48,522 bases of DNA from Candidatus Gastranaerophilales bacterium. Its GTDB lineage: Bacteria; Cyanobacteriota; Vampirovibrionia; Gastranaerophilales; Gastranaerophilaceae. Positions 39,259-44,149 of this stretch are shown here, one piece after another. The notes under the pieces are model-generated. The model worked only from the letters and a program-made list of their open reading frames with translations. It had not been told where the DNA came from and ran no database searches. The stretch is taken from assembly GCA_944325535.1 (NCBI GenBank), contig CALVAL010000005.1, positions 1 to 48,522 on the forward strand, given 5' to 3'. How positions within the stretch are numbered: position 1 is the stretch's first letter; the number at the start of each line of letters is the position of its first letter. The translations under genes were made by a program, and so were the position numbers.

Positions 39259-39804
39259 ATGAATCTTACGAGCTTAGATATAACATTACAAAGAATAAAT
39301 ATGATTGAAAATCAATTTCAATCACTTATGTCTTATGGTGCTAAGCCTGATGCAGATTTTCAAAAAATCCTCGACTCCTCTATTTCTAGCAAGAAAAATT
39401 CTACAGAAACCTCAAGAGCTGAAATCAACGAATTAATAGAAAAATATGCAGAAAAAAACGGCTTAGATGCTGATTTTGTAAAAGCTGTAGTAAAACAAGA
39501 ATCAGGATTTAATCCAAATGCAACATCTCATTGCGGAGCAATGGGACTAATGCAGTTAATGCCATCAACTGCTGAAGGTCTTGGTGTTACTAATGCTTAT
39601 GATGCAGAACAAAATATTCAAGGTGGCACAAAGTATTTAAAAGGTTTAATGGATAGATTTGATAATAACAAGTCATTAGCATTAGCTGCATATAATGCTG
39701 GACCTAATGCAGTAAAAAAATATGGTGGAATTCCGCCATATATGGAAACACAAAATTACGTAAAAAGTGTTTTAAACAACTATGACAAAATGAAAGGGGG
39801 GTAA
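39259..39804 (+). CDS. Flagellar lytic transglycosylase (SLT domain)
   Basis: The 181-residue protein has a soluble lytic transglycosylase domain: VVKQESGFNPNA (catalytic Glu about 78), GAMGLMQLMPSTAEGLG, and LAAYNAGPNAVKKYGG. No signal peptide is present; the N-terminal 60 residues look like a flagellar-export type leader. It cleaves peptidoglycan, most likely to let the flagellar rod pass the wall. It provides the muramidase activity that FlgJ has in other bacteria, since the FlgJ here lacks that domain. Its TAA is followed directly by the ATG of a mini-ORF. Confidence 0.92.
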   Translation: MNLTSLDITLQRINMIENQFQSLMSYGAKPDADFQKILDSSISSKKNSTETSRAEINELIEKYAEKNGLDADFVKAVVKQESGFNPNATSHCGAMGLMQLMPSTAEGLGVTNAYDAEQNIQGGTKYLKGLMDRFDNNKSLALAAYNAGPNAVKKYGGIPPYMETQNYVKSVLNNYDKMKGG

Positions 39805-39967
39805 ATGTATACTAGATTGATTTTAACCCGCCTAGCAAAAAAGAAAGGAGCGGGGTAAATGTACAATAGATTGATTTTAACCCGCTTAGCAAAAAAGAAA
39901 GGAGCGGGAGTAAATGTACAATAGATTGAATTTAACCCGCCTAGTAAAAAAGAAAGGAGCGAAGTAA
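39805..39967 (+). repeat. Three tandem 54/55 bp repeats, each a mini-ORF with its own ribosome binding site
   Basis: Between the transglycosylase stop and flgF lie three near-identical units. Each encodes a short basic peptide and carries AAAGGAG near its end, 7-9 nt before the next ATG. Unit 1 (39805-39858) gives MYTRLILTRLAKKKGAG; unit 2 (39859-39924) is four residues longer owing to one extra A; unit 3 (39914-39967) gives MYNRLNLTRLVKKKGAK. Unit 1 begins immediately after the previous stop, and unit 3's TAA overlaps the flgF ATG by 1 bp. ACCCGC and GCGGG(G)T within units 1 and 2 can pair around the binding site; unit 3 has lost that pairing. Confidence 0.85.
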
Positions 39968-40794
39968 TGATAGTAAGAAGTTTTGAATCAGCTGCTAACG
40001 GCATGCTCGCTCTTATGGATATGAACGATAATACTGCTAATAATTTAGCAAACGTTAATACAGTAGGGTATAAAAAAGGTTCTTTAAGATTCAAAGATGT
40101 TATGGAATCAGCTGTATATAACAAAGAAGGCTCTGTAGTTCGTAATCATTCTAATGAATATATTGGAAGCTTAAGTTGCGGAAGTCAGAGTATGCAATAT
40201 ACTCACGATTTTTCACAAGGAGCTTTGACAAAGACATCAAATCCTTATGATGTTGCAATCGAAGGCGATGGATTCTTTAAAATCCAAGATGCAGAGGGAA
40301 ATGTTTCATATACTCGTAACGGATCATTCGTTGTGGATAGAGGATATTGGCTTAAAACAAAACAAGGGGAATTTGTTTTAGATATCAATAATAGAAGAAT
40401 TAGAATGCTTCCTGAAGATATGGATGATGAAACTATTTTTAGAGATAGAAAAGATATCGTAATTGCGGAAAACGGAAATATTGAAATTAATTCATATAAT
40501 CAAAAGATTCCGCTTCAGACTATTGGAGTATACGATTTTGCAGATAAAGATGACTTATTTGAAATCGGAGATGCAAAATTTGTACCAAGAGATCTTGTAA
40601 ATAATCCAGAATTACGTTCAGAAAAATTTACAGTACAACAAGGAATGTTAGAGCTCTCAAACTCAAATGTAATCAAAGAAATGATTAATACAATTAATAC
40701 AACAAGGAATTATGAGAGCTTGACAAAACTTGTAAGTACAAATAGCGATATGCTAACAACAGCTGTCTCTGTAGGGAGAATAAGAACAAGCTAA
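39967..40794 (+). CDS. flgF: Flagellar basal-body rod protein FlgF
   Basis: The 275-residue protein starts VRSFESAANGMLALMDMNDN, with the rod-family motif NTANNLANVNTVGYKKG, and carries NPYDVAIEGDGFFKI in the D1 region. It ends with a FlgG-like helix SNVIKEMINTINTTRNYESL. These are common to FlgF/FlgG. It comes before the clear flgG and differs from it in the middle, as FlgF should. It builds the proximal part of the rod across the periplasm. Its ATG overlaps the third mini-ORF by 1 bp. Confidence 0.92.
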   Translation: MIVRSFESAANGMLALMDMNDNTANNLANVNTVGYKKGSLRFKDVMESAVYNKEGSVVRNHSNEYIGSLSCGSQSMQYTHDFSQGALTKTSNPYDVAIEGDGFFKIQDAEGNVSYTRNGSFVVDRGYWLKTKQGEFVLDINNRRIRMLPEDMDDETIFRDRKDIVIAENGNIEINSYNQKIPLQTIGVYDFADKDDLFEIGDAKFVPRDLVNNPELRSEKFTVQQGMLELSNSNVIKEMINTINTTRNYESLTKLVSTNSDMLTTAVSVGRIRTS

Positions 40795-40869
40795 TACAAT
40801 TAAGTTTTTAGGATAAAAATCGTCAACAGGGGTAAGGTTACCAGACTAAAATGAGGAAAAGAGGATAAA

Positions 40870-41655: not shown

Positions 41656-41656
41656 G

Positions 41657-41700
41657 TTAGTGACTAGTGACTAGTGAATAGTGATTAGAATTTTGAAATA
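41657..41700 (+). repeat. Heptamer repeat spacer after flgG
   Basis: Variants of AGTGAAT/AGTGACT run in tandem (TTAGTGACTAGTGACTAGTGAATAG and on). The 7 bp period puts a TGA or TAG in each reading frame. Related blocks follow flgA, flgI and flgJ. Confidence 0.7.
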
Positions 41701-41741
41701 GGTTGGACTGATAAGCAAAACATAACAAATAAGGTAAGTAA

Positions 41742-42446: not shown

Positions 42447-42600
42447 AAAGTGATTAGTGAATAGTGAATAGATTAGTAAAAAGTGAAGTGCGAGGTGTGA
42501 TGAGTGAAGAGGGTGTTAAAAGTAGTAATTAGTAAATAGTGAATAGAAAAGAAAAATTTGAAATAAATTTCTCATTTCACCTCACTCCTCACTCATAACT
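42447..42600 (+). repeat. Heptamer repeats and inverted repeat between flgA and flgI
   Basis: AGTGATT/AGTGAAT heptamers are followed by GTGAAGTGCGAGGTG and later CACCTCACTCCTCAC, which can pair to a long imperfect stem. No gene is seen in this spacer. Confidence 0.6.
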
Positions 42601-42621
42601 CAAAACAAAAAAGGTAAGTAT

Positions 42622-43795: not shown

Positions 43796-44149
43796 ATGGA
43801 TTTTTCAACACCTACAATAGACTTAATAAAAAGCGGACTTCAAAATGCTCAAACTGTAAATTCTGATCAGGTTTTATATAACCAAATCAAGGGAGCAGGA
43901 GACTCAAAAGAGCAATTAAAAAAGGCTGCAACAGAATTTGAAAGTATTTTCATAACAAAAATGCTTTCTCAAATGGACAAAACCGTTGATAGAGAAAATG
44001 GTATTTTTGGAAAAGAATCACATTATGTTGATACATTTAAATCCATAGTTTATCAACAAATGGGACATGATATCGCAAATAATCCGAGAACAACCTTTGG
44101 TTTTGCAGATCAAATCTATAGACAGATGGAAAAATATGTTGGAAATTAG
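43796..44149 (+). CDS. flgJ: FlgJ rod-cap domain protein (no muramidase domain)
   Basis: The 117-residue protein is the N-terminal rod-binding domain of FlgJ: LKKAATEFESIFITKMLSQM and ESHYVDTFKSIVYQQMGHDI, with a C-terminal FGFADQIYRQMEKYV. The C-terminal N-acetylglucosaminidase of enterobacterial FlgJ is absent, a common arrangement. It caps the growing rod; wall cutting is probably done by the transglycosylase at the head of the cluster. Confidence 0.93.
   Translation: MDFSTPTIDLIKSGLQNAQTVNSDQVLYNQIKGAGDSKEQLKKAATEFESIFITKMLSQMDKTVDRENGIFGKESHYVDTFKSIVYQQMGHDIANNPRTTFGFADQIYRQMEKYVGN

Follow-up and report, generated by a model that had tools for sequence, protein, structure and literature searches.

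The transglycosylase–flgF junction

The window, a stretch of 48,522 nucleotides, belongs to a 1.99-Mb MAG of Gastranaerophilales (gut Melainabacteria), an uncultured gut bacterium from a group in which some members are known to have flagella (PMC4040986). The operon considered here comprises, in order, an SLT transglycosylase gene, flgF, flgG (the second rod-protein gene), flgA, and flgI. The SLT-domain lytic transglycosylase (39259–39804; Pfam SLT, PF01464, E 7e-33) is encoded by an ORF with the 3′ end GGGGGG-TAA, and the ORF of flgF (39967–40794) encodes Pfam flagellar rod/hook domains; both genes, and the repeat copies, mini-ORFs, Shine-Dalgarno (SD) sequences, and hairpins described below, lie on the forward strand. 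The operon also includes a separate gene for a FlgJ-N rod-binding protein. Transglycosylase and FlgJ-type rod-binding domain (43796–44149) are divided here between two genes, unlike in many proteobacteria, whose FlgJ is a two-domain protein. The G6 run at the end of the transglycosylase gene (39796–39804) stands directly before TAAATG, and a slip of one base would alter both the stop and the first link to the sequence that follows.

The 162 nt between the transglycosylase TAA and the flgF ATG (39805–39966) are three copies of one unit, of 54 bp (39805–39858), 55 bp (39859–39913), and 53 bp (39914–39966), which Tandem Repeats Finder reports as 3.0 copies of a 54-bp unit (score 284, 93% matches). 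Every copy begins with ATG and stays open, giving mini-ORFs of 17–21 codons. The ATG of mini-ORF 1 (39805–39858; MYTRLILTRLAKKKGAG) abuts the transglycosylase TAA (39802–39804), and its own TAA abuts the ATG at 39859 with which mini-ORF 2 (39859–39924; MYNRLILTRLAKKKGAGVNVQ) begins. Mini-ORF 2 ends in a TAG at 39924 and overlaps mini-ORF 3 (39914–39967; MYNRLNLTRLVKKKGAK) by 11 nt, and the TAA of mini-ORF 3 shares 1 nt with the ATG of flgF (TAATG). The ORF-to-ORF links along the chain are 0 nt, 0 nt, an 11-nt overlap, and a 1-nt overlap.

An SD-like AAAGGGG is located in the last transglycosylase codons (39793–39799), 5 nt before mini-ORF 1. Each copy carries an AAAGGAG 7–9 nt before the next ATG: at 39844–39850 for mini-ORF 2, at 39898–39904 for mini-ORF 3, and at 39953–39959 for flgF, where the spacing is 7 nt. 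AAAGGAG is complementary to the CTCCTTT of the 16S 3′ end of one congener, G041 (CCTCCTTT; GGATCACCTCCTTT); the anti-SD was taken from this single congener because a search for the 16S 3′ end in the window's own MAG did not find it. This anatomy agrees with an earlier note on the same DNA, which had described three tandem copies, mini-ORFs of 17–21 residues with an SD for the next ATG in each copy, and stops and starts that abut or overlap from the transglycosylase TAA through to TAATG.

The first two copies can also fold around their SD sequences, as that note had proposed. In copy 1, CCCGC (39827–39831) is predicted to pair with GCGGG (39850–39854), forming a hairpin at 39827–39854 (fold z −1.6), and in copy 2 the same elements (39881–39885 and 39904–39908) form a hairpin at 39881–39908 (fold z −3.0). 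Copy 3 has no such stem, and the SD of flgF is without the GCGGG arm; the last copy lacks the stem in 4/4 genomes that carry the array. The stem sequence of the internal copies never varies and is thus without covariation support. A ribosome translating an internal copy would open the predicted hairpin over the edge of the SD, which fits coupling. The flgF start itself has an ordinary predicted opening energy (9.1 kcal/mol, compared with a genus median of 8.5). Accessibility of this start was considered as the target of the array and rejected, since the opening is the same in array-free relatives. No promoter was found within the array, and an Rfam search of the array returned no match.

The array is real and not a chance arrangement: it is seen in independent assemblies, three congeners having two or three diverged copies. 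Dinucleotide shuffles of the gap gave a complete ATG relay in 20/20,000 cases. For a repeat, this result mostly reflects one unit, so the comparison between genomes counts more.

Junctions in related genomes

Transglycosylase matches were present in 142/144 relatives, and junctions were read at 91 distinct loci from two collections. Within the genus, the transglycosylase and flgF genes meet at −1 or −4 nt in 55/67 junctions and at 0 or +1 in two more (57/67 in total), and the SD of flgF usually lies within the last transglycosylase codons (...AAAGGAGCGAACTAATG). In more distant relatives, the junction is at −1 or −4 in 19/22. In two congeners the genes are 18 and 25 nt apart, with a strong SD and no bridge, and the remaining 8/67 genus junctions have gaps of 53–163 nt.

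These eight expanded junctions fall into two groups. The array is limited to one clade of four genomes (SH-aLRT 100) with three (G000), two (G022), three (G055), and three (G043) units. Four other congeners, G013, G035, G008, and G040 (loci L036, L041, L042, and L049), have gaps of 53–59 nt, each holding one mini-ORF of 17–18 codons (MHYNLSTTHTKYKGENK, MFGLWFYSFHKNIVGGQL, MYISGLNSKEDLPIRGLL, and MFFNSFSSFYKVGLRGLI, respectively). Their peptides are unrelated to those of the array and the geometry is the same: the single mini-ORFs begin 0 or 6 nt past the transglycosylase stop and overlap the flgF start by 4 nt. L042 compares well with a unit of G055 (0–1/500 shuffles), but this is one of about 30 comparisons and the branches are distant, and a common origin of array and single mini-ORFs was rejected.

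All gaps longer than 25 nt at this junction (8/8, at five tree positions) are bridged by a complete ATG relay, for which the shuffle chance is 1.0–3.1% per single mini-ORF and 0.1–0.5% for the arrays. As a control in the same genomes, the flgF-flgG and flgG-flgA junctions have 54 gaps of at least 40 nt, none of which is bridged. The difference corresponds to a Fisher P of 3e-10, or 2e-7 counting five lineages, values that are approximate because the control rows are phylogenetically non-independent. The true number of origins may be lower than five, the single mini-ORFs requiring at least two changes on the tree.

In every case the first mini-ORF is in the frame of the transglycosylase. The single mini-ORFs may be C-terminal extensions of this gene that a new stop, immediately ahead of a methionine, has cut off; at some loci of the genus (L007, L008, L010–L012, and L029), the transglycosylase does have a long in-frame tail that extends to flgF. 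The open frame of the single mini-ORFs is then possibly inherited, which weakens their shuffle probabilities. An inherited frame leaves unexplained the nearby restart ATG found in all cases, for which coupling provides an explanation. The translational coupling suggested by the earlier note thus gains support, at the level of sequence comparison, from an overlap that is the norm of the genus and from expanded junctions that appear to be kept bridged at this gene pair and not at its neighbors.

Origin and distribution of the unit

The 3′ half of the unit (AAAAAGAAAGGAGCGGGGGTAA) resembles the 3′ end of the transglycosylase gene. When units are aligned with the transglycosylase 3′ ends of array-free sisters (AAAATGAAAGGAGCGGGG with AAAAAGAAAGGAGCGGGG), 0/500 shuffles are as good for most pairs. 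The alignments strongly indicate that this half was copied from the transglycosylase 3′ end and hence that the array grew by tandem duplication of the junction. A colinear origin of the whole unit from the transglycosylase 3′ end (NYVKSVLSNYDKMKGAG with MYNRLILTRLAKKKGAG) was rejected, the 3′ half being clear and the 5′ half suggestive: at best 15–17/33 positions of the 5′ half are identical, with a p of about 0.01 that depends on the reference. An origin from the 5′ end of flgF scored no better than shuffles.

Five sister loci (L007, L008, L010, L011, and L012) have in-frame 12-bp repeats of the GGGGTAAATGCA type, encoding a (GVN)n peptide, that lengthen the transglycosylase tail to the flgF start. 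The sister repeats carry the same GGGGTAAAT motif as the unit and mark the junction as prone to tandem growth. In this sense, the junction is a hotspot where tandem growth occurs in two reading modes.

The 20-base core of the unit, allowing up to two mismatches, has no second locus in the genome or the genus, and other matches in the genus have three mismatches and are chance-like. For a dispersed, mobile repeat of the MIRU or REP kind inserted at the flgF start codon, there would be a precedent: MIRUs are believed to enter start codons in this way, forming coupled ORFs (PMC12548453). With the unit at one locus only, in its own genome and in three relatives, such an insertion is highly improbable.

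Substitutions in the units

Across the 11 units, a smallest-change network contains 6 synonymous and 17 nonsynonymous substitutions. The nonsynonymous share expected without selection is 65–71%, so the observed ratio matches neutrality, and no purifying selection on the mini-ORF amino acids is detectable in the 11 units. Given the substitutions, the freedom of these units from stops is not significant (P 0.18–0.40), and stop avoidance was therefore rejected as proof of coding. Invariant in the units are the ATG, AGATTG, a TTA, AAAAAGAAA, and GCG, of which AAAAAGAAA and GCG flank or form the SD. The earlier note had suggested comparing copy number and codon-level conservation in relatives; copy number varies between two and three, and the substitutions fit neutrality at the amino acid level.

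That the units encode functional basic peptides, for example a family of small regulators, was an alternative in the earlier note. All of the units are open (11/11), and a core of MYxRLxLTRLxKKKGA is recognizable. The run of invariant codons at the 3′ end, however, spells the SD, the substitutions are those of neutral sequence, the peptides of other lineages are unrelated, and the genome holds no further copy. Because the peptides are neutral and differ between lineages, a peptide family is not supported, and a peptide function is very unlikely. Neutral change of the peptides is what is expected if the act of translation alone matters.

Divergence of the array between genomes is 8–12%, below the dS of the flanking genes (mostly 0.2–0.6), and could result from nucleotide constraint or from concerted evolution. 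The units show a single indel, a switch between G4 and G5 at the unit end, and either state stops within reach of the next ATG. Unit 2 of G022 and unit 2 of G043 have a common body and different ends, which implies gain or loss of units within the array; the last copy always ends in GCGAAGTAATG.

These observations also bear on a neutral tandem duplication, in which replication slippage copied the transglycosylase end together with its SD, the open frames arose incidentally, and translation of flgF begins at its own SD without help from upstream. Such a history would account for the neutral amino acid changes and the stop-freedom that is not significant, for expansion at a junction where sisters have 12-bp (GVN)n repeats, and for the strong SD of flgF in the last copy. 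It would not account for the bridging of 8/8 expanded junctions against 0/54 at control junctions, for the mini-ORFs of other lineages, which are unrelated yet share the geometry, or for the genus-wide overlap of transglycosylase and flgF genes, and the low divergence of the array also speaks against it, though concerted evolution could cause this last feature. On balance, we consider neutral duplication unlikely.

Proposed relay of ribosomes

The array probably acts as a series of leader mini-cistrons and, through termination-reinitiation, maintains the translational coupling of flgF to the transglycosylase gene, a reading drawn from the sequence comparisons. A ribosome ending the transglycosylase at TAA would restart at the abutting ATG of mini-ORF 1. 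Each mini-ORF ends within reach of the next start, so the ribosome could restart in series, with the SD of each restart embedded in the final codons of the preceding ORF, and at the last stop (TAATG) it would start flgF. The mini-genes would most likely serve this hand-over of ribosomes between genes rather than the production of useful peptides. Selection for coupling would be the reason that only bridged expansions survive.

In Escherichia coli, an added 38 nt between stop and start reduces reinitiation by 80–90% or more, and the last 15 nt of the upstream gene suffice (PMC10666635); some other studies, covered in a review, found a weaker distance dependence (PMC12548453). Without a relay, 162 nt would abolish the ancestral coupling, whereas with it every step would remain within reach. 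Use of the chain by ribosomes is what we infer from this arrangement. Against the relay, flgF has its own strong SD and an ordinary predicted accessibility, so an independent start is possible, and the gaps of 18 and 25 nt in two congeners are unbridged. The reason for coupling this pair might be that flagellar assembly calls for a wall-cutting enzyme and a rod protein at one and the same step.

On top of the relay, the number of units could set how much flgF is made per transglycosylase, as in the tuning considered by the earlier note, if a fraction of the ribosomes were lost or gained at each restart. Copy number does differ between species (two or three), internal starts have the predicted hairpin and the last copy is without it in 4/4 genomes, and in Mycobacterium tuberculosis, fpg1 expression has been linked to the length of an upstream tandem repeat (PMC2734929). 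Only two copy-number states in four species are available, however, and the predicted opening energy of flgF is that of its relatives; tuning by copy number is quite unlikely. As a broader proposal, and one we would put forward only tentatively, the locus may represent, outside the mycobacterial MIRUs, a natural serial relay of throw-away mini-cistrons that arose by accordion-like duplication of the junction and that fixes, by how many there are, the ratio in which two adjacent flagellar proteins are translated.

The proposed relay of leader mini-cistrons suggests that translational coupling at a specific gene pair can be preserved after the junction is broken open, via ORFs selected solely for being translated. 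The natural series of zero, one, two, and three leaders provides a test of whether termination-reinitiation passes several stops, and the array warns against taking ORFs of this size for peptide genes.

Comparison with known systems

In the synthetic bicistronic design (BCD; Mutalik et al. 2013), as described in PMC5995908, the BCD2 leader has 17 amino acids, an embedded SD, and a stop and start shifted by one base. Similar to BCD, the array has leaders of 17–21 codons (17 amino acids for mini-ORF 3) whose 3′ ends contain the SD for the following start, and the stop of mini-ORF 3 overlaps the flgF start (TAATG). The array differs in being natural, in having two or three leaders in series, and in probably being fed by the upstream gene, whereas BCD is fed by a promoter-proximal SD.

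The mycobacterial interspersed repetitive units (MIRUs; Supply et al. 1997, cited in PMC12548453 and PMC2734929) are intergenic tandem units of 40–100 bp, variable in copy number, in which a small ORF is coupled to the start of the gene that follows; they are scattered over about 41 sites and apparently mobile. The array likewise comprises intergenic tandem units (53–55 bp, two or three copies) whose ORFs meet the next start (TAATG, TAA-ATG, and the 11-nt overlap), so coupling is possible. In contrast to MIRUs, the unit is at one locus rather than dispersed, with a 3′ half that comes from the upstream gene.

Overlapping gene pairs with termination-reinitiation (PMC6728339, PMC10666635) share the −1/−4-nt overlaps, the SD in the upstream gene, and a distance dependence that the relay would bypass. 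The array differs from them by several serial restarts on ORFs without an apparent product. The uof-fur pair of E. coli has a coupled short upstream ORF that delivers ribosomes to the downstream gene. Short ORFs coupled to downstream genes are also described for mycobacteria (Shell et al. 2015, cited in PMC12548453). Both are single, not tandem, and not derived from a neighboring gene. In the open-access literature on natural tandem leaders, nothing closer than BCD and MIRUs was found. By analogy, the array may best be read as a natural, tandem counterpart of synthetic BCD that would be MIRU-like in its working and is not dispersed.

Other spacers of the operon

The flgG-flgA (41656–41741) and flgA-flgI (42447–42621) spacers contain many short GTGA(A/C)TAGTGA(A/C)TAG-like repeats, with ACTCGTGAATCGTGA in L079, that are reminiscent of the short tandemly repeated repetitive sequences of cyanobacteria. 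In the flgF-flgG spacer (40806–40855), a core of AGGATAAAAATCGTCAACAGGGGTAAGGTTACCAGA is invariant across 4/4 array genomes, although the dS of flgF reaches 0.6.
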